The translations under genes were made by a program, and so were the position numbers. 40,361 bases of DNA from an uncultured Opitutia bacterium (GTDB taxonomy: Bacteria > Verrucomicrobiota > Verrucomicrobiia > Opitutales > Opitutaceae), in the NCBI GenBank assembly GCA_903881475.1, contig CAIRTK010000078.1, positions 1 to 40,361 on the forward strand. Direction: 5' to 3'. Positions 11,658-22,571 of this stretch are shown piece after piece. The notes under the pieces are model-generated. The model was given only the letters and a program-made list of their open reading frames with translations, was not told the DNA's origin and made no database searches. Within the stretch, counting starts at the first letter, position 1. Each line of letters starts with the position of its first letter.

Positions 11658-12311
11658 ATGTCGAACATCTTTCCCAAGTCGGCGAACAAGCTTCCGCTCC
11701 AGATCATCCTCTATCTGGTGGTCCTCGGCGGGGTGGTCACGGCCGGCGCGACCTACTACATGACGCCGAAGTACACGCGCGTCGGCTATGCCCCCGTCCA
11801 GCCCGTGCCCTACAGCCATGCGCTGCACGCCGGCCAACTCGGCATCGACTGCCGTTACTGTCATAGCAACATCGAGAAGTCGGGCGTGGCCAACCTGCCC
11901 ACTGCCCAGACGTGCATGAACTGCCACAACCAGGTGAAGAAGGACAGCCCCCTGCTCGCCGTGGTCCGCCAGAGCTATGAGACCGGCGAGGCGGTACCGT
12001 GGGTCAAGATCCACCAGACCCCGGACTACGTCTATTTCAACCACGCCATCCACGTGAACCGCGGCGTCAGCTGCGTGGAGTGCCACGGCAAGATCAACGA
12101 GATGGACGTCGTCGCCCACGCCAAGCCCCTCAGCATGGGCTTCTGCCTCGACTGTCACCGCGATCCCGCGAGCCATGTCCGCGAGAAGGCCGACATCTAC
12201 AACCTGGATTCCCCGACGATCGCCGAGAAGTCCGGCTTTGCCGCGGCGCACCAATTCCTGACCGACCGGAACATCAAACCTCCGCAAAGCTGCTCCGGCT
12301 GCCATCGATGA
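11658..12311 (+). CDS. actA: Alternative complex III pentaheme cytochrome c subunit ActA
   Basis: A 217-residue protein with one N-terminal membrane anchor (LQIILYLVVLGGVVTAGATY) and five CxxCH heme c motifs: CRYCH (about 65), CMNCH (86), CVECH (139), CLDCH (163) and CSGCH (212). Five hemes, the single anchor and the position directly before a large Fe-S/molybdopterin-like subunit identify ActA of alternative complex III (ACIII), the bc1-independent quinol:cytochrome c oxidoreductase. ActA conducts electrons from the ActB clusters toward ActE or the terminal acceptor on the periplasmic side. The stop overlaps actB by 4 bp. Confidence 0.95.
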   Translation: MSNIFPKSANKLPLQIILYLVVLGGVVTAGATYYMTPKYTRVGYAPVQPVPYSHALHAGQLGIDCRYCHSNIEKSGVANLPTAQTCMNCHNQVKKDSPLLAVVRQSYETGEAVPWVKIHQTPDYVYFNHAIHVNRGVSCVECHGKINEMDVVAHAKPLSMGFCLDCHRDPASHVREKADIYNLDSPTIAEKSGFAAAHQFLTDRNIKPPQSCSGCHR

Positions 12312-15300
12312 AACGCAAATTTCACCATCCCGAACCGTCTGAACGCGCGCTGTCCGGCCCGAAGTACTGGCGCAGCCTCGACGAGCTGGCGGCGACGCCC
12401 GGCTTCAAGGCGCAGCTGGCGCGTGAATTTCCCGAGGGTTCCTCCTCGATCGAGGGCGTGGACCGCCGGCAGTTCACCAAGATCATGGCCGCGTCCTTTG
12501 CCTTGGGCGGCCTCGGTCTCGCCGGCTGCCGCCGTCCGGAACAGTATGTGCTGCCCTACGGCAAGTCGGTCGAGGGTGTGATCCAGGGCCTGCCGCGGTA
12601 TTTTGCCACGGCGATGCCGCTGCGCGGCTCGGCCATCCCGCTGCTCGCGGAAACCCACCAGGGCCGCCCGACCAAGCTCGAGGGCAATCCCTCCTACGCG
12701 CCCCATGGCGGCGCGAGCTCGCTGCTCGCGCAGGCCTCCGTGCTCGACCTTTACGACCCGGACCGCGCCACGACGCACACGATCAAGGGCCAGGCCGCCA
12801 CGTCCGCGCAGGTTGCGGCGCTGCTGGCGGATCTCGCCAAGACGTACGCCGCCGCGAGTGGGGAAGGGCTGGCCTTCCTCGCCGAGGAATCCAGCTCCCC
12901 GACGCGTGCCCGCCTGCTGGGTCAGCTCAAGGAGAAGTTTCCCCGCGCCCTCTGGGCCGAATACGAGCCCGTGCAGGACGAGCCGCCGGCCGCCGCGGCG
13001 CGCGCGAGCTTCGGCCAGGACGTCAAGCCCCTCTACCAGTTCGCCAAGGCCAAGCGCATCGTCAGCATTGAAGCCGATTTCTTCCACGCCGAGGCCGGCA
13101 GCCTTTATTACTCGCGCGAGTTCGCCAAGGGACGCCGGGTGACGAAGAAGGAAGACCCAATGAACCGCCTCTACGTCGTGGAGAGCGGCCTCAGCCTCAC
13201 CGGCGGCATGGCGGACCACCGCCTGCGTCTGGCCAGCAGCCACATGGCGGCCTTCGCCGCCGCGCTGGCGGCCAAGGTCATGGGCGGCTCCCCGCTGGAC
13301 GCGCTGGGCCAGGGACTCGACTTCAAGGACAAGGACAAGTGGCTCGAGGCCTGCGCGCAGGACTTGCTCGCCCACCGCGGGGAATGCCTCGTGGTCGCCG
13401 GCGCCCAGCAGCCCGCGGCCGTGCATGCCATTGTGTACGCGCTGAACGCGTTCCTCGGGAACGTGGGTTCGACGATTGATTTTGTCGCCATCCCGGCCGC
13501 CACCGCCTCCGGCATCGGCGCGCTGGCCGCCGCCATCAAGGCCGGTGCGGTCAAGACGCTGTTTGTGCTCGGCGGCAATCCGGCCTACAACGCGCCGGCG
13601 GACCTCGACTGGAGCGCGCTGCAGAAGTCGGTGCCCGAGGTGATCCGCTACGGTTACTACGCTGACGAGACCTCGGCGCTGGCCGGCACGCAGATTGCGG
13701 CCACGCATTACCTCGAGTCCTGGGGCGACGCGCGCACGGTGGACGGCACGATCGTGCCGGTGCAGCCGATGATTCTGCCGCTGTTCAACGGCCTGACTGA
13801 GATCGAGGTCCTCGCCCGGGTGCTGGGCGAGACCCAGGCCGATCCCTACGCGCTGGTGTACGCCACGATCACCGGGCTCGCCGCGGGCGCGGATCCGGAG
13901 AAGGCCTTCCGGCAGTTCCTGCATGACGGCCTGGTCGAGGGTTCGGCCTACGCGAAGGTGGCGGTGAGCTATGACGCCAGCGGCGCCAGCTCCCTGTTCA
14001 AGTCCGCGCCGAAATTCGAGGCGCTGTCCGCCGGCAAGCTCGAGGTCCGCTTCGTCACCGACCACAAGATGGACGACGGCCGCTTCGCCAACAACGGCTG
14101 GCTGCAGGAAGTCCCGGACCCGGTCACCAAGATTTCCTGGGACAACGCGATTCTCATCAGCCCGCGCCTCGCGCAGGAGCTGGGGATCTACCCGAAGGGC
14201 TCGTTGCTGCAGATCGCGCGCGTCGAGAACGATGCGGACGCCGCAGGCAAGGAAAACGCCCACATCGCCGAAATCACCCTTGGCGGCCGCAAGATCCGCG
14301 GGCCGCTGCATATCCAGCCCGGCCTCTCCAACTACACCCTGATCCTGCCGCTGGGCTATGGTCGCACGGTCTCGGGCCGCGTGGGCAAGGACGCGGGCTT
14401 CAGCGCCTATCCGCTCCGGACGTCCGAAGCCCCGTATTTTGCCACGGGGGCGACAATCACCCTGACCGGCGAGCGCATGCTGCTCGCCAGCACCCAGGTG
14501 CACTGGTCGATGGAAGGCCGCGATATCGTCCGCGAAGCCAACTACGAGGGCCCGGAGAGCTATGCGGAGAACCCGGCCTTCGTGAAGGAAGTCGGCATGG
14601 AGGCGGAGACGCCTTCCGTGCTGGGCGAGGTGGGCGAGGCGATGACTCCGGCCGAGCGCGCCAGCCAGATCCCGCGCGGCGAGTCGCTGTACTCGACCCC
14701 GAAATTTGACGGCGTCCATCAGTGGGGCATGTCGATCGACCTCAATACCTGTACCGGGTGCAACGCCTGTGTCGTCGCCTGCCAGGCCGAAAACAATATT
14801 CCGATCGTCGGCAAGGACCAGGCGCTCCGCGGCCGCGAGATGCACTGGATCCGGCTCGACCGCTACTACTCCGACGGCCTGGCCGACGGCGCCGCCTTTG
14901 GCGGCGAGGGCAACCACCAGCTGCCCGAGGATCCCCAGGTTTCCCTGCAGCCCGTGGCCTGCCAGCAGTGCGAGCTCGCCCCGTGCGAGACGGTCTGCCC
15001 GGTCAATGCCACGGTGCACGACGACGAAGGCCTCAACGTGATGGCCTACAACCGCTGCATCGGGACCCGCTACTGCGCCAATAACTGCCCGTACAAGGTC
15101 CGCCGGTTCAATTATTTCGATTACAACCAGCGCCAGCTCGACAGCCTGTATCTCGGGCCCCTCGGGCCGCACGGCATGCCGGAGCTCGTCCAGATGGTGA
15201 AGAATCCCGAGGTGACGATCCGCATGCGCGGCGTGATGGAGAAGTGCACGTATTGCGTGCAGCGCATCCAGAATGGGAAGATCGAGCACAAGGTGAAGAC

Positions 15301-15660
15301 CGCCCAAGCGGGCAATCCGGGCGACGTCGTTGTCCCCGACGGCACGATCAAGACCGCCTGCCAGCAGGTGTGCCCGGCCGAGGCCATCGTGTTCGGCAAC
15401 GTCCTTGACGAGCAGAGCGCCGTGTCGAAGGCCAAGCTGCGGGAGCAGGACTATCAGCTGCTCGGCTACCTCAACACCCGTCCGCGGACCTCGTACCTCG
15501 CCAAGCTGCGCAATCCCAATCCCAAGATGCCTGATTACTCCGCGCTGCCGCTCAGCCGCATCGAGCACAACAAGAAGAGCCACCCCGGTGGAACGGAAGC
15601 CAAGCCCGAGGCGGGGCATGCCGCGCTGCCGGCCGCAAACAGCTTTGGAGGACTTAGCTA

Positions 15661-15661
<1 letters not shown>
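12308..15661 (+). CDS. actB: ACIII Fe-S/molybdopterin-like subunit ActB
   Basis: An 1117-residue fusion of a molybdopterin-oxidoreductase-like domain (about residues 100-780) and a four-cluster ferredoxin domain (about 800-1050). A Tat-type signal lies near residues 45-75 ([20 protein letters not shown]) and ends in LAGC, so the protein is probably exported by Tat and lipid-anchored. Cysteine groups are [11 protein letters not shown] (about 815), [13 protein letters not shown] (885), [11 protein letters not shown] (917), CTYC (980) and CQQVC (1018), fitting three [4Fe-4S] and one [3Fe-4S]. In studied ACIII the first domain binds no molybdenum. It overlaps actA by 4 bp. Its stop overlaps the actC start (TAATG), preceded by a GGAGG site at about 15648. 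Confidence 0.95.
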
Positions 15662-17094
<1,433 letters not shown>

Positions 17095-17101
17095 TCCGCC
17101 C

Positions 17102-17635
17102 ATGGCCACACCCAATTACGGATTGATTGCCACGTTCGACTCCCCGCCGGACCTGTACCACGCGGCGGAGAAGGTGCGCGATGCCGGCTACAAGAACTGG
17201 GACTGCATCACGCCGTTTCCGGTCCACGGGCTGGACAAGGCGATGGGCGTGCGCCGCTCCATCGTGCCGCGCATCTCGCTCGCCGGCGGCATCACGGGCT
17301 TCTGCACGGGCATGTCGATGATCTGGTGGACGGGCGCCTACGACTACCAGATCACGGTCGGCGGCAAGCCGCTCTTCAGCCCGATGTTCGCCTTCCCGGT
17401 CAGCTATGAGCTGACGATCCTCTTCACGGCCTTCGCCACGATCGGCGGCATGTTCTTCCTGAACGGCCTGCCGATGCATTACCATCCCGTGCTCAAGTAC
17501 GACCAGATCAAGCGCGGCATGGACGACACGTTCTTCATCGTCATCGAAGCGCGCGACCCGCGCTTCAACCTGGCCAACACCAAGGCGCTGCTTGAGCAGG
17601 CCGGCGGCAAGGAAATCAAGGAGCTGGAAGCCTGA
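17102..17635 (+). CDS. actD: ACIII membrane subunit ActD (DUF3341)
   Basis: A 177-residue protein with a soluble N-terminal domain (GLIATFDSPPDLYHAAEKVR, YKNWDCITPFPVHGLDKAMG) and two transmembrane helices (ISLAGGITGFCTGMSMIWW and ELTILFTAFATIGGMFFLN). The C-terminus carries a DDTFFIVIEARDP strand. This is the DUF3341 layout of ActD, whose role in ACIII is structural. The ATG at 17102, just after the actC stop, starts at the family's usual N-terminus (MATPNYGLIATF). In-frame ATGs at 17063 and 17075 within actC are alternatives. Confidence 0.92.
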   Translation: MATPNYGLIATFDSPPDLYHAAEKVRDAGYKNWDCITPFPVHGLDKAMGVRRSIVPRISLAGGITGFCTGMSMIWWTGAYDYQITVGGKPLFSPMFAFPVSYELTILFTAFATIGGMFFLNGLPMHYHPVLKYDQIKRGMDDTFFIVIEARDPRFNLANTKALLEQAGGKEIKELEA

Positions 17636-17638
17636 GCC

Positions 17639-18274
17639 ATGCGCAACGTCTATCTCGTCACCGCATTCCTCGTTGTGCTCACGGTCTCCATCCTTGGGCT
17701 CCGGGGCACGAAATTCACCCATCCGCCGATGGACGTCTTCCCCGAGTGGGCGTTCCCCGGCATGAAGCGACAGCCCAAGCCGCGCCCGCAGGGCGAGAGC
17801 ACCTTCTTCGCCGACGGCCGGGCGGACCGCCCGATTCCCGCCGGCACCGTGTCGCGCGATCCGCTGCGCAATGATTCCGCCCTTTACGAGGGCAAGGCCG
17901 CGGACGGCACGTTTCTCCGCGGGTTTCCCCCAGCCATCACGGTGGACGCCAAACTCATGGCGCGCGGCAAGGAGCGTTACACCATCTACTGCTCGCCGTG
18001 CCACGGCGGAGTGGGGGATGGCAACGGCATCACCAAGCAGTACGGCATGGGCGCGACGCCGACCTATCATGACCCGCGCCTGCGGGCCATGGCCGAGGGC
18101 GAGATCTTCAACACCATCACGCACGGCAAGGGCAATATGCTGTCCTACGCCGACAAGGTTCTTCCGCAGGACCGTTGGGCCGTGATCCTGTATGTCCGCG
18201 CCCTCCAGCGCGCGCAGACGGGCACCGTGGCGGACGTTCCCGAGGCCCACAAAACGGAGCTTGGCATCAAATGA
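17639..18274 (+). CDS. actE: ACIII monoheme cytochrome c subunit ActE
   Basis: A 211-residue protein with an N-terminal membrane anchor or signal (NVYLVTAFLVVLTVSILGL), a PMDVFPEWAFPGMKRQPK segment typical of ActE, and one heme c motif CSPCH in YTIYCSPCHGGVGDGNG. A downstream Met in HGKGNMLSYADKV is the likely sixth ligand. In ACIII it passes electrons to a soluble or oxidase-bound acceptor. It begins three bases after actD and overlaps actF by 4 bp. Confidence 0.94.
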   Translation: MRNVYLVTAFLVVLTVSILGLRGTKFTHPPMDVFPEWAFPGMKRQPKPRPQGESTFFADGRADRPIPAGTVSRDPLRNDSALYEGKAADGTFLRGFPPAITVDAKLMARGKERYTIYCSPCHGGVGDGNGITKQYGMGATPTYHDPRLRAMAEGEIFNTITHGKGNMLSYADKVLPQDRWAVILYVRALQRAQTGTVADVPEAHKTELGIK

Positions 18275-19548
18275 GCACCCACGCCGCAACCGCTCCCGCC
18301 GCCCTGGCCACGGATTCGACCTCATCGTCGTCCGCGGCCACCAAGGCCCTGATCATCGGTCTCGCCGGCCTGGCCGTGACGGCCGCGGGCATCGCGCTCT
18401 CGCCCAACAAGCACGGGCCGGTGATGTCCTATCTTGTCGGCGTGACCTATTGGACCGCCATTGCGATCGGCATGCTGATGATGGTCATGATCCACCACAT
18501 CGTGGACGCCTCCTGGTCGGTCGTCATCCGCCGCCAATGGGAACACGGGCTCGCGGCCTTCAAGTGGCTGTTTGTCCTGTTCCTGCCCCTGCTGATCCTG
18601 GCGTGGGTCAAGCCCGGCTACGTCTGGCCGTGGATGGATCTCCATCATGTGCTGCACGGGAGCGAGACGGTCGGCAACGACGTCCTCTACCAGAAGAAGT
18701 CCGGGTTCCTGAACCTGGACATGTTCACCGGTATGACGCTGGCGTTCTTCATCATTTGGGTCTGGCTGTCCGCCCGCCTCCGCAAGGCCTCGTTCACGCA
18801 GGACGTGGACGGCAAGGCGTCCTGGACCACGGCCAACCGGGTCAATGCGGCCATGGGCCTGCCGCTGGGTGCGCTCACGCTCACCTTCGCCGCGGTGTAC
18901 TGGGTGAAGAGCCTCGAGTACCACTGGTTCTCCACGATGTACGGCGTCTGGTTCTTCGCGAACTGCATGCGCGGCGCGCTCTGCTGCGGCGTCGTGATCA
19001 TGGTCTGGCTCTACCGCCGCGGGGATTACAAGGGCATCCTCAACACGAACCACTTCCACAGCATCGGCCAGCTGATGCTCGCCTTCACGGTGTTCTGGGC
19101 CTACGTGACCTTCTCCCAGTATTTCCTGATCTGGAACGCCAACATCCCCGAGGAAACCTTCTGGTATAACCTGCGCGAACTGAACCACGACGGCTCCACC
19201 AACCAGTGGTGGTACGTCGGCCTCGTGCTGGTGTTCGGCCATTTCGTGATCCCGTTCTGCGCGCTGCTGTCCTACCGCTTCAAGGTCACGCAGCCCATCA
19301 TCCGCCGCATCGCCTTCTGGGTGCTGACGGTGATCCTGGTCGACATGTGCTACAACATCCTGCCGGCGCTGAAGGATGCGCACGGTGATTCGCTGCCGTT
19401 CCTCTCGATCAACCTGCTCTGGGTGCTCACCTCGGTGATCGGCATCGGCGGCGTCTGCATCTGGGCCTATCTCCGGAGCCTCCCGACCACCAAGCTCATC
19501 CCGATCCGCGACCCGCGCATTGGCGAATGCCTGACTCACCATGAGTGA
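18271..19548 (+). CDS. actF: ACIII membrane subunit ActF (NrfD-like)
   Basis: A 425-residue polytopic protein, homologous to ActC but shorter, with about ten helices such as ALIIGLAGLAVTAAGIAL and SYLVGVTYWTAIAIGMLMMV. The HHIVDASWSVVIRRQWEHG segment after the second helix and the FVIPFCALLSYRFKVTQP stretch are characteristic. ActF is thought to pair with ActC in the membrane and lacks cofactors. ATG 18271 overlaps the actE stop (ATGA). Upstream in-frame codons belong to actE in another frame and were discarded. Its own end overlaps the following small gene by 8 bp. Confidence 0.94.
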   Translation: MSTHAATAPAALATDSTSSSSAATKALIIGLAGLAVTAAGIALSPNKHGPVMSYLVGVTYWTAIAIGMLMMVMIHHIVDASWSVVIRRQWEHGLAAFKWLFVLFLPLLILAWVKPGYVWPWMDLHHVLHGSETVGNDVLYQKKSGFLNLDMFTGMTLAFFIIWVWLSARLRKASFTQDVDGKASWTTANRVNAAMGLPLGALTLTFAAVYWVKSLEYHWFSTMYGVWFFANCMRGALCCGVVIMVWLYRRGDYKGILNTNHFHSIGQLMLAFTVFWAYVTFSQYFLIWNANIPEETFWYNLRELNHDGSTNQWWYVGLVLVFGHFVIPFCALLSYRFKVTQPIIRRIAFWVLTVILVDMCYNILPALKDAHGDSLPFLSINLLWVLTSVIGIGGVCIWAYLRSLPTTKLIPIRDPRIGECLTHHE

Positions 19549-19837
19549 TTCCCCCTCCAAGTCCGCTCCGCTCGTGACCATCCTGACCGTGCTGGCCGGC
19601 TTCGCGCTGTTCCTGCTGGTCGTGTACTATCTCTACGTGCCGCTGCAGACCGGTCCCTACACCGACGACGGCATCCACACGGCCGCGGTGCGGAAGGAGA
19701 ACCTGGCCAAGTTGCGGGAAAAACAGGCGAAGCAGGCGGCCAGCTACGGCTGGGTCGACCAGAAGAACGGCGTCGTCCAGCTCCCGCTGGAGCAGGCGAT
19801 GGACCTGACCCTCCAGAAATACGCCTCCAAGCAATAA
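19541..19837 (+). CDS. Small single-pass membrane protein of the ACIII operon
   Basis: A 98-residue protein with one helix (LVTILTVLAGFALFLLVVYY, about residues 11-30), a short exposed stretch, a charged helix (RKENLAKLREKQAKQAA) and a tail with SYGWVDQKNGVVQLPLEQAM. A YGWVD...GVV..P...AM pattern is, from memory, a recurring feature of small proteins near respiratory oxidase and ACIII genes in several phyla, but no function is assigned to it. The overlap with actF and position before the CcoN-like gene suggest a structural or assembly role in the complex. It is not CcoQ-like in sequence as far as can be seen. Confidence 0.8.
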   Translation: MSDSPSKSAPLVTILTVLAGFALFLLVVYYLYVPLQTGPYTDDGIHTAAVRKENLAKLREKQAKQAASYGWVDQKNGVVQLPLEQAMDLTLQKYASKQ

Positions 19838-19855: not shown

Positions 19856-21280
19856 ATGACCACCGCACCCTCCGCCGCCACGCCGGCCGAAGTCACCGAG
19901 ATCGACGCCTCCGCGCGTTGCTCGCTGCTTTTGCTGCTCGGTTCCGCGCTCGCCTGGCTCGTCCTGAGCGGCGCGCTGGCGCTTGTGAACCTTGTCCAAC
20001 TCAACTCCCCGTCGTTCCTGGCGGAGTGCCCGGTGTTGTCCTTCGGCCGCACGCAGGCCCTGCAGGAGACGGCCTTCATCTACGGGTGGGCCGCCAATGC
20101 CGGCCTCGCCGTCGCCCTCTGGATCCTGGGCCGCCTCGGCGGCTCGCCGTTGCGCTCGTTGAACTGGGTCATCACCGGCACGATCTTCTGGAACGTCGCG
20201 GTCACGCTCGGGCTGGTGGGCATCGCGACCGGCGACGCCATGGCGCACACGTGGCTGCACCTGCCGCGCTACGTCCTCCCGATGATGCTGGTCGCCTACG
20301 GCACGATCGCCGTGTCCGGCGTGCTGGCCTGGACCGGCCGGCGCAACCCGATGACCTTCGCCGCGCAATGGTACGCAGTCGCGGCGCTGTTTCTCTTTCC
20401 GTGGATTTTCTCCGCCGCGCAGGTGATGCTGGTATTTACTCCCGAGCGCGGCGTCCTGCAGGCCCTGGTGGGAGGCTGGTTTGTGCAGGGAGCCTGGACC
20501 CTGTGGCTCGCTCCGCTCGCGCTGACCTCGGCCTATTACCTGGTGCCGAAAGTCAGCGGCCGGGCCATCCCGAGCTATGATTTTGCCGCGCTCAGCTTCT
20601 GGACCCTGCTGGTGGTCGGCGGGTGGACGGGTGGGCGCCATTTCATCGGCGGCCCGGTTCCGGCCTGGGTGGCGTCCATTGCCGGCGTCTCGTGCGCGCT
20701 CCTCCTGTTTCACTACATTGTCGTGGGCCTCAATCTCCGCGCCGCCTTCTCCAGCGGCGGCAGCACGGTGCTGAAGTTTGTCGCCTTCGGCCTTGGCGCC
20801 TACGTGTTGGGCGGGTTCCTCGATGCCCTGACGGCCATCCGGGGCGTGGCGCTGGTCACCCAGTTCACCTATTTCACCGCGGCCCAGTCGCAGCTCGCGC
20901 TCAATGGAGCTTTTTCCATGATGATTTTCGGAGCGATTTACTTTCTGGTGCCCCGCATCACGGGGCAGGCCTGGGCCTCCTCGACGCTGATCCGCGCGCA
21001 CTACCTGACGGCCATCATCGGCACGACCGCGCTGGTCGCGGCGCTCGCCGTGGCCGGCTGGGTCCAGGGTCACGACCTGAACGATCCGGCGGTGACGTTT
21101 GCGGTGATCGCCGGGCACACCAAGACCTGGCTGCAGGTGGCAACGGCGGCCCAGGCGCTGCTGGTGCTCGGTAATCTTCTCCTACTCGGCCATCTGCTGA
21201 AATCGGCCGTTTCGAGCCTCCTCGCCCCGGCGACCGCGACCTTCCGCCAGCCTCCGACGATGGAGGCGTCTGTGTCATGA
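19856..21280 (+). CDS. CcoN-like heme-copper oxidase subunit I homolog lacking ligands
   Basis: A 474-residue protein with about 12 hydrophobic segments and clear CcoN (cbb3 oxidase subunit I) landmarks: LSFGRTQALQETAFIYGW, APLALTSAYYLVPKVSGRAI, DFAALSFWTLLVVGGW, HYIVVGLNLRAAF and GAFSMMIFGAIYFLVPRITG. In CcoN these segments carry six ligand histidines. By eye alignment, the low-spin heme His becomes Gln70 and the first CuB His becomes Gln211. The HH pair becomes Arg261-His262, and the H-x-H heme pair becomes Gln344-Ser-Gln346. The Tyr of the active site is also absent. The protein should therefore bind neither the heme pair nor CuB and cannot reduce oxygen in the usual way. It is coupled by a 4-bp overlap to a CcoO-like gene. 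A structural or redox-complex scaffold role is inferred. Confidence 0.85.
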   Translation: MTTAPSAATPAEVTEIDASARCSLLLLLGSALAWLVLSGALALVNLVQLNSPSFLAECPVLSFGRTQALQETAFIYGWAANAGLAVALWILGRLGGSPLRSLNWVITGTIFWNVAVTLGLVGIATGDAMAHTWLHLPRYVLPMMLVAYGTIAVSGVLAWTGRRNPMTFAAQWYAVAALFLFPWIFSAAQVMLVFTPERGVLQALVGGWFVQGAWTLWLAPLALTSAYYLVPKVSGRAIPSYDFAALSFWTLLVVGGWTGGRHFIGGPVPAWVASIAGVSCALLLFHYIVVGLNLRAAFSSGGSTVLKFVAFGLGAYVLGGFLDALTAIRGVALVTQFTYFTAAQSQLALNGAFSMMIFGAIYFLVPRITGQAWASSTLIRAHYLTAIIGTTALVAALAVAGWVQGHDLNDPAVTFAVIAGHTKTWLQVATAAQALLVLGNLLLLGHLLKSAVSSLLAPATATFRQPPTMEASVS

Positions 21281-21909
21281 AAAACGGCTTCACTTTCTTC
21301 CTCGGTCTTTTCCTGGCCCTTGCCCTGGCTTGGGCGGGCATCGTGCTGGGCTCCCATGCCCAGCTTGGCCACCTCGCCCCTTATTTCGACGAGAACGAGG
21401 GCAAGGCCTTTCCTGAGCGCCTGCCCGGCATCGCCGCGCGCGGCCAGCTGGTTTATCAGGATCTCGGCTGTGCTGCCTGTCACACGCAGCAGGTGCGCCG
21501 GCCGGACTTCGGCAGTGACAAGGCGCGGGGCTGGGGTGACCGCCAGAGCGTGGCCCGCGACTATGTGAGCCAGCCCCACGTGCAGCTCGGCGAAAGCCGG
21601 ATCGGCCCGGATCTGGCCAACTTTGGCGCCCGGCCGCTGGCGGTGGATGCCGAACGCCTGACCCAATACCTTTACGACCAGCACGGCGGCATGCCGCCCT
21701 ACCGCTTTCTCTTTGAGACACGCAAGATCACCGGTGAGCGCTCCGCGACGGCGCTCAAGGTTCCGGCCGCGGTGGGCATGGAGGTGGTCCCGACCCACCG
21801 GGCCCAGGCCTTGGTGGCGTACCTGCAGAGCTTGAACAACGTGTACGAATATCCCGAGGCCCGTCCGGTCGAGCCGGCGGAAGAGAAGAAGGAGGGTGCG
21901 GCCAAATGA
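21277..21909 (+). CDS. CcoO-like monoheme cytochrome c
   Basis: A 210-residue protein with an N-terminal anchor (FTFFLGLFLALALAWAGIVL) and a heme c site CAACHTQQVRRPDFGSDKAR. The CHTQQVR..GSD.ARGWG and RSVARDYV-like stretches, RIGPDLANFG and MPPYRFLFE (likely Met ligand) are diagnostic of subunit II (CcoO/FixO) of cbb3 oxidases. The C-terminus is Glu/Lys-rich. Unlike the subunit I homolog encoded before it, this protein keeps its cofactor site. It overlaps both neighbours by 4 bp. Electron transfer between ACIII and another carrier is the likely role. Confidence 0.9.
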   Translation: MKNGFTFFLGLFLALALAWAGIVLGSHAQLGHLAPYFDENEGKAFPERLPGIAARGQLVYQDLGCAACHTQQVRRPDFGSDKARGWGDRQSVARDYVSQPHVQLGESRIGPDLANFGARPLAVDAERLTQYLYDQHGGMPPYRFLFETRKITGERSATALKVPAAVGMEVVPTHRAQALVAYLQSLNNVYEYPEARPVEPAEEKKEGAAK

Positions 21910-22571
21910 GCGACCAAACCCCCATCGACCCGCGCCAGGAGCAGGCCGGCGCCTCGGACGAAAGTCTGCTGGCGGCGCATGAGAAGCTGCTCGGCAAGAA
22001 GCCCGAGGACGGCGCGCATTACAAGATGCTGCCGCTCGCGCTGCTCTTCGTGTTCAGCGGCCTGATTTTCTACGCCGGCACCTATCTCAACCACTATTCC
22101 GGCCACTACGACCCGGCGATCTTCAACGAGAATGCCCATCCCAGCAGCGGGGCGGCGGCCGCAGTGAAGGTTGACCCGATGGTGCTCGGCAAAAAGAACT
22201 TCGAGCTGGTGTGCGCCACCTGCCACCAGATCAACGGCCTGGGCGTGGCGGGGGTTTATCCGCCGCTGGCCGGTTCCGAGTGGGTCAACGGCTCCGAGGA
22301 GCGCGTTATCCGCATCGTGGTCTATGGCCTCAAGGGCGAGGTCAGCGTCGAGGGCAAGACCTACAGTTCGGCGGCCATGCCGGTCATCGGCAAGGTCACG
22401 GGCTCCGGCTACAACTGGAGTGACGAGAAGATCGCGGCCGTCCTGACGTACGTGCGCGCCTCGTTCGGCAACAAGGCCCCGCCGATCACCGCCGAGAAGG
22501 TCGCCGAGATTCACGCCAAGGAAGGCGACCGCAAGGAGTGGTCGCAGGATGAGCTGCTCAAGCTCCATTGA
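21906..22571 (+). CDS. Membrane-anchored monoheme cytochrome c
   Basis: A 221-residue protein with a cytoplasmic N-terminus, one helix (MLPLALLFVFSGLIFYAGTY, about residues 40-60), a linker and a cytochrome c domain. The heme site is CATCHQINGLGVAGVYPPLA, with a Met ligand candidate in SSAAMPVIG. The domain resembles the small class-I cytochromes fused to or associated with cbb3 and caa3 oxidases. CcoP would carry two hemes, whereas this one has a single heme. It is the last gene of the ACIII cluster and overlaps the CcoO-like gene by 4 bp. It could be the exit carrier to a terminal oxidase encoded elsewhere. Confidence 0.88.
   Translation: MSDQTPIDPRQEQAGASDESLLAAHEKLLGKKPEDGAHYKMLPLALLFVFSGLIFYAGTYLNHYSGHYDPAIFNENAHPSSGAAAAVKVDPMVLGKKNFELVCATCHQINGLGVAGVYPPLAGSEWVNGSEERVIRIVVYGLKGEVSVEGKTYSSAAMPVIGKVTGSGYNWSDEKIAAVLTYVRASFGNKAPPITAEKVAEIHAKEGDRKEWSQDELLKLH

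Follow-up and report, generated by a model that had tools for sequence, protein, structure and literature searches.

The ACIII operon and its CcoN-like gene

The window, defined here as the whole stretch of DNA analysed (40,361 nucleotides), carries actABCDEF in order from position 11658 to 19548, the arrangement of an ACIII operon. These genes are followed by genes for a 98-aa protein, a CcoN-like subunit I (here called N), a CcoO-like cytochrome and a small cytochrome c. The features are listed in Table 1. The identity of actD comes from Pfam; those of the other act genes are assigned by domain and position, and the last of them is presumably actF, by its position. Five CXXCH motifs are present in each of the 70 actA found.

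Table 1. Genes of the ACIII operon and of the N cluster in the window.
Feature	Position	Strand	Basis
actA, pentaheme cytochrome	11658..12311	+	PF14522 2.2e-13
actB	12308..15661	+	ORF translation, homologs in same order; start and name inferred
actC (NrfD-like)	15661..17094	+	PF03916 6.4e-28; name by position
actD	17063..17635	+	PF11821 5.7e-65
actE, mono-heme cytochrome c	17639..18274	+	PF13442 1.6e-10; name by position
actF	18271..19548	+	Order and homology in related loci; start inferred
98-aa protein between ActF and N, with a single hydrophobic stretch	19541..19837	+	No Pfam family above cut-off
N, hollow CcoN-like subunit I, 474 aa	19856..21280	+	PF00115 3e-34; 3mk7_A TM 0.86
CcoO-like mono-heme cytochrome c	21277..21909	+	PF02433 FixO 2.8e-9; CXXCH and axial Met kept (MPPYRFLF)
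Mono-heme cytochrome c	21906..22571	+	PF00034 7.5e-10; Met ligand kept

The product of the N gene scores 89.9 bits against the NCBIfam ccoN model TIGR00780, below its equivalog cut-off of 583.15 bits. A sequence search of the PDB with HMMER returned five matches, all of them CcoN chains, including 9g6b_A (1.1e-15) and 3mk7_A (3.4e-15). An AlphaFold2 model built from 18 sequences has a pLDDT of 83.8 and a pTM of 0.88. The cbb3 CcoN chains lead the Foldseek ranking of this model, with 3mk7_A as the best match (E 7.2e-19, TM 0.86/0.87), and NorB stands below them with a TM of 0.77. The preliminary description of the locus had assigned the protein the length and helix pattern of CcoN, and both the PF00115 match and the structural match to 3mk7_A agree with this. 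Judged by sequence and predicted structure, N is a CcoN-fold protein of the C-family (cbb3) subunit I type. Nitric oxide reductase was rejected as an identity because the PDB sequence matches are CcoN chains alone and the histidine positions of NorB, whose FeB/heme site we take to be histidine-based, are also lost.

The window N has its fold, length and CcoO-like partner in common with the CcoN of cbb3 oxidase (3mk7, 9g6b). It differs from CcoN in lacking the complete set of heme b, heme b3 and CuB ligands, the active-site Tyr, and an adjacent CcoS-like gene.

Loss of the heme and copper ligands

Five of the six heme and CuB histidines and the active-site Tyr are missing from the window N. The ligand positions read Q70, Q211, R261-H262 and Q344-S345-Q346, and VGGW occupies positions 254 to 257. 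Columns 70 and 346, which we take to hold the His pair of the low-spin heme b, both carry Gln, as does column 344, presumably the place of the heme b3 proximal His. G255 stands where intact relatives carry a Tyr, assumed here to be the active-site Tyr of helix VII; this Tyr is present in 21/21 intact and 0/61 hollow copies (defined below). The CuB ligands, reported as His207, His257 and His258 in P. stutzeri (PMC3578206), are represented by Q211, R261 and H262, with one of the three kept.

The residues named for these positions in the preliminary description are correct by translation and alignment. The window motifs lie opposite the ligand motifs of 9g6b_A and 3mk7_A in the HMMER alignments, which, taken with the structural match of the model, argues that the histidines have not simply shifted elsewhere in the protein.

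Each of the 19 relatives in the contig set is an open frame that lacks the ligand set, and each sits in this operon to the extent that its contig covers it. When 288 genomes of the phylum were searched with a profile, 91 had matches; 74 strong matches were taken with their surroundings, and 43 of the 74 are hollow. Only hollow sequences went into the search profile (A1), the most distant at 32% identity to the window protein; the search may thus favour hollow copies, and the proportions are no census. Among 99 aligned N proteins, 36 have all six histidines (intact) and 63 have zero to three (hollow). An actF gene accompanies 84 N genes, 63 hollow and 21 intact; two near copies (L057 and L014) are left out of the tallies of 61 hollow and 21 intact operons. 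Intact and hollow N occupy one and the same position in ACIII operons. The probability that hollow copies are an artefact of alignment or assembly is negligible, as independent assemblies agree (19/19 loci, and 43/74 further stretches hollow), the motifs line up with those of solved CcoN chains, and the predicted fold agrees.

A held-out set was drawn from the order. Profile matches were found in 129 genomes, 37 of which were in the first set; of the 92 new genomes, 79 (80 loci) were used and 13 were left out. All six histidines are present in 37 of the 80 loci and not in the other 43. No locus has five, one has four (L256), twelve have three, and two have two. Two intact loci are without actF, one of them (L296) being a separate cluster, and 43 of the 78 ACIII-linked loci are hollow. 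The genome with L296 (G349) also has a hollow ACIII-linked N (L239); L296 itself is a ligand-complete cluster of N, CcoO-like and cytochrome c genes (N-O-c), preceded by a CcoS-like gene and followed by what looks by eye like a P-type ATPase gene. The nearest plasmid relatives (Azoarcus, Cupriavidus, Paraburkholderia) are likewise ligand-complete N-O-c clusters, and act genes were not detected near them within the stretch read.

The residues at the six ligand positions were counted in the window clade (24 rows). They are Q15 R6 T1 A1 H1 at position 70, Q22 E2 at 211, R24 at 261, H19 Q2 A1 K1 V1 at 262, Q18 L4 M1 T1 at 344, and Q22 K1 A1 at 346. The commonest residues, in this order of positions, can be written QQRHQQ for the window clade and AHSRRW for six other rows of the same family; 21 rows from other families give HSQKFI, and the five rows of family f8 give SESHFV. 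The glutamines had been described beforehand as a conserved redesign. Gln does prevail in the window clade, but the set varies even there and is absent from most hollow clades. A specific redesign to Gln was rejected, since Gln is largely the replacement of one lineage and other hollow clades mostly carry other residues.

Some histidines are kept or gained. H70 is kept in 20 of the 61 hollow rows, and in 19 of the 21 rows of one group, and H382 is kept in 55/61. His286 (window positions 20711-20713) has a conservation of at least 92% in the window clade and stands in place of a Pro found in 21/21 intact copies. This residue could be a new ligand or reflect a change of packing. These three histidines favour a reading in which hollow N holds a redox cofactor through new ligands (His286/His382, or His70 with a non-His partner) and acts as an electron-transfer or quinone-binding cytochrome b. 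We regard this as unlikely. No new ligand set is common to the hollow clades, His286 occurs in only 24/61 hollow rows (P, G, A or S in the remaining 37), and the mean number of histidines per aligned row drops from 17.9 in intact to 9.7 in hollow N.

Selection, the CcoS-like gene and recurrent loss

Every one of the 61 hollow N tallied is encoded by one uninterrupted frame, 467-585 codons long; the profile search favours open frames, and broken copies of N could be missed. One N, in G371, lies in two pieces on two contigs. A dN/dS check suggested beforehand points to purifying selection on hollow N, with values of 0.05-0.30 in 11 hollow pairs. The values are 0.05-0.08 in three unsaturated intact pairs, dS being saturated in three of the six intact pairs. 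These estimates were made on stop-to-stop frames and include some upstream codons. The median ratio of N to ActC distance is 3.62 for 395 hollow pairs vs 2.11 for 34 intact pairs. Among positions conserved in intact N (n=196), 43 are equally conserved in hollow N (at least 90% in both) and 62 are largely lost. Constraint on hollow N, as estimated from these comparisons, is lower than on intact N but real. Hollow N has the features of a pseudoenzyme, with catalytic residues lost and the predicted fold and selection retained.

Hollow N might instead be what remains of a lost oxidase, in slow decay and retained only for its position between useful genes. Its faster evolution, the lineage-specific substitutions and the existence of intermediates with 4, 3 and 2 of the 6 ligands would suit such a relic. 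This is nevertheless highly improbable given the dN/dS values, the 43 positions conserved in both sets, and the open frames in 61/61 hollow N at identities to the window protein that go down to 32% within A1.

A small gene is present between the small protein and N in the intact operons L068, L076 and L098. It matches FixS (PF03597) with E values of 3.7e-4, 5.3e-4 and 0.08, all below the Pfam cut-off. A CcoS-like model was built from the small gene of intact operons and applied frozen to the 80 held-out loci. Immediately before N, the CcoS-like gene is found in 21/21 intact vs 0/63 hollow operons, and in the held-out set it is present in 37/37 loci with six histidines vs 1/43 of the others. 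Eleven independent pairs on the tree compare this gene with the state of N; 10-11 agree and none oppose (p 0.001-0.002). The one exception, L230 in genome G339, has lost five of the six ligands and has kept the gene, and is perhaps a recent conversion. In the plasmid relatives, a similar CcoS-like stretch is fused to the N-terminus of N, although the matches are weak.

Genome-wide, in 24 chosen genomes, the CcoS-like gene was found in 7/7 intact vs 0/17 hollow genomes. The model, which covers this CcoS type only, had no match in the window operon or elsewhere in the genome of the window. Mere relocation of CcoS was rejected, as the gene was found nowhere in 17/17 hollow genomes by a search specific to this CcoS type. 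The same 17/17 count also stands against a cofactor held by new ligands. CcoH, CcoI and CcoS are reported as essential for active cbb3 (PMC7558416), and Rhodobacter CcoS mutants are reported to have a cbb3 that is fully assembled but inactive (PMC5742617). An inactive N can thus, by analogy with these mutants, still assemble with its cytochrome subunits, and hollow operons would resemble the CcoS-mutant state made permanent.

The number of times that the ligands were lost was read from three trees. The ActC+ActF+ActD tree (145 rows) requires 14 changes of state, 11 of them forced by well-supported branches, and contains 16 hollow-only clades when rooted at the midpoint. The ActB+ActC tree (70 rows) requires 8 changes, 6 of them forced. 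Five rows were left out of the ACIII trees, as were rows without well-scoring actB, actC or actF. The N tree alone, from which ten rows were left out, requires 3 changes and has long-branch warnings (L113, L114, L105, L115, L116 and L118). A single origin of hollow N was rejected because the ACIII trees need 8 and 14 changes despite the 3 of the N tree. Replacement of N between lineages could lower these counts; L062/L063 group with the window clade on the N tree and with L070 on the ActB/C tree. The intact state is taken as ancestral because it is that of the outgroups and because a complete ligand set would hardly re-arise. Ligand loss seems to have recurred, by different substitutions in different clades.

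Partner cytochromes, other oxidases and proposed role of hollow N

The CXXCH of the CcoO-like protein is kept in 61/61 hollow operons, and that of the cytochrome c in 60/61, the remaining protein not having been found. The axial Met of the cytochrome c is kept in 59/60 (one gap). The axial position of the CcoO-like protein is more variable in the 61 hollow operons (M 40, C 9, H 7, R 2, K 1, A 1, gap 1). This Met is present in 21/21 intact operons and replaced in 20/60 hollow ones (for example L012, L062 and L102-L112), where the replacement likely shifts the redox potential and the CcoO heme may be off the main path. Partner conservation fits a small cytochrome c that would stay on the electron path and a route from CcoO to heme b that would have been abandoned.

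Relatives of the 98-aa protein were found in 21/21 intact and 43/61 hollow operons. This protein carries a YGWVDQ..G...LP...AM stretch and has no family in NCBIfam. In L087, L088 and L092, the genes seen upstream of N are limited to actE and actF, and actA-D were not detected in the stretch taken; this genus may have a split ACIII operon. The actF of L066 and the actC of L119 each occur in two frames, which may be a frameshift or an assembly error.

Another PF00115 gene is present in 85 of the 87 hollow genomes (27/27 outside family f1, 17/17 in f1 and 41/43 held-out). These figures are per-genome counts of matches, with the type of each match not given, and from one of the f1 searches the count takes in just those 12 genomes of the family whose N was known to be hollow. 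The two exceptions, G476 and G360 (fragmented, 91% complete), show no other match. Among genomes with an intact N, this N stands alone as a PF00115 match in two of 21 (G146 and G001) and in two of 37 (G446 and G336, the latter 80% complete).

In 20/27 hollow genomes outside f1, the same strand carries a COX1 with a score above 400 bits no more than 5 kb downstream. It is taken as A-type, which is supported by the one copy tested in NCBIfam (CtaD at 476 bits, under the cut-off). COX2 (PF00116) is a few kb off in most of these genomes, about 3 kb beyond COX1. COX2 had seemed to be missing beside COX1 in L118 and L102, which raised the hollow N-O-c as a substitute for the CuA subunit II of the downstream A-type oxidase; this was rejected when PF00116 found COX2 in most of these genomes. 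The position of N-O-c between the ACIII genes and a high-scoring COX1 would also suit an adaptor or assembly factor for another oxidase, and hollow N might have gained such a regulatory role or one in transport (a proton or ion path). We consider a gained role of this kind very unlikely, as nothing in the sequence points to a specific new function and the heme c partners, which a pure channel does not need, are kept.

The genome of the window has a ligand-complete CcoN with apparent CcoG, CcoI and canonical-looking CcoS genes on contig C9 and a caa3-like set on contig C11, both named partly by eye. In G152 (L119) and G042 (L118) the ACIII-linked N is hollow and reads SESHFV. Their other PF00115 matches comprise, in each genome, two above 430 bits, a further one (G152) or two (G042) read as B-type, and one that is NorB-like; the NorB-like copy of G042 matches 3o0r_B at 1.1e-86. 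None of these other matches looks like CcoN. We infer that the hollow N of these two genomes, taken as Kam1 (G152) and SolV (G042), is the gene called cbb3 in Methylacidiphilum papers.

The ligand loss is read directly from the sequences, and we infer a docking or relay role as their most economical reading. Hollow N is probably a structural part of the complex. The favoured reading, which we hold to be probable, is that of a cofactor-free former oxidase subunit that would be kept as a membrane dock for cytochromes c between ACIII and a separate oxidase and would not reduce O2. The cofactor-free scaffold of the preliminary description survives in this form as the likeliest role, given ligand loss with gene, fold, partners and operon kept; its view of the glutamines as the design does not.

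A C-family subunit I would first have been built into the ACIII operon as actABCDEF-x-ccoS-N-O-c. N then lost, in the lineage of the window and separately in others, the Tyr together with most or all of the residues that bind both hemes b and CuB, and the CcoS-like gene disappeared from the operon. Hollow N would anchor the CcoO-like protein and the small cytochromes c in the membrane and dock them to ACIII. Electrons from quinol would pass out of ACIII by way of ActE and then the small Met-ligated cytochrome c, and would end at a separate terminal oxidase. This oxidase may be the caa3-like set on C11 or the cbb3 on C9 in the genome of the window, and the A-type oxidase encoded just downstream in several other families. 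Hollow N itself would no longer reduce O2.

A C-type subunit I gene beside ACIII, named as an oxidase, is reported from Opitutaceae and verrucomicrobial methanotrophs (Refojo 2010, cited in PMC8498564). The neighbourhood and taxa are the same as here, where the sampled ACIII-linked copies are hollow in 63/84 and 43/78. Co-location of ACIII genes with cbb3 is reported as in line with high O2 affinity in Methylacidiphilum (PMC6688271). In the ACIII-aa3 and ACIII-caa3 supercomplexes, the oxidase is described as coupled by gene order and by direct cytochrome c contact (PMC5928083); the pairing of ACIII with an oxidase is alike, and the partner described there is catalytic.

A literature search, with most subscription journals outside its reach, yielded no paper recognised as describing a ligand-less CcoN in ACIII operons. 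It found one earlier ligand-less case, a deranged COX1-like protein of Acetobacter, which is said to lack all metal-cofactor-binding residues and yet to be retained; it is described as clustering with CtaB and proposed as a CtaB stabiliser (PMC10715153). Loss of metal ligands with retention of the protein is common to this case and hollow N. Unlike the Acetobacter protein as described, hollow N is of the C-family, lies in an ACIII operon, keeps its cytochrome partners, is recurrent, and is accompanied by loss of CcoS.

On balance, the ACIII-oxidase core of Verrucomicrobiota would appear to have been turned about 11 or more times independently into a heme- and Cu-free docking or relay subunit, with the CcoS-like gene nearly always lost. 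The series of intact, partly emptied and empty N offers natural material on the roles of subunit I besides catalysis and on what a respiratory supercomplex needs. For genome annotation, it means that PF00115 or ccoN matches beside ACIII are often not oxidases.
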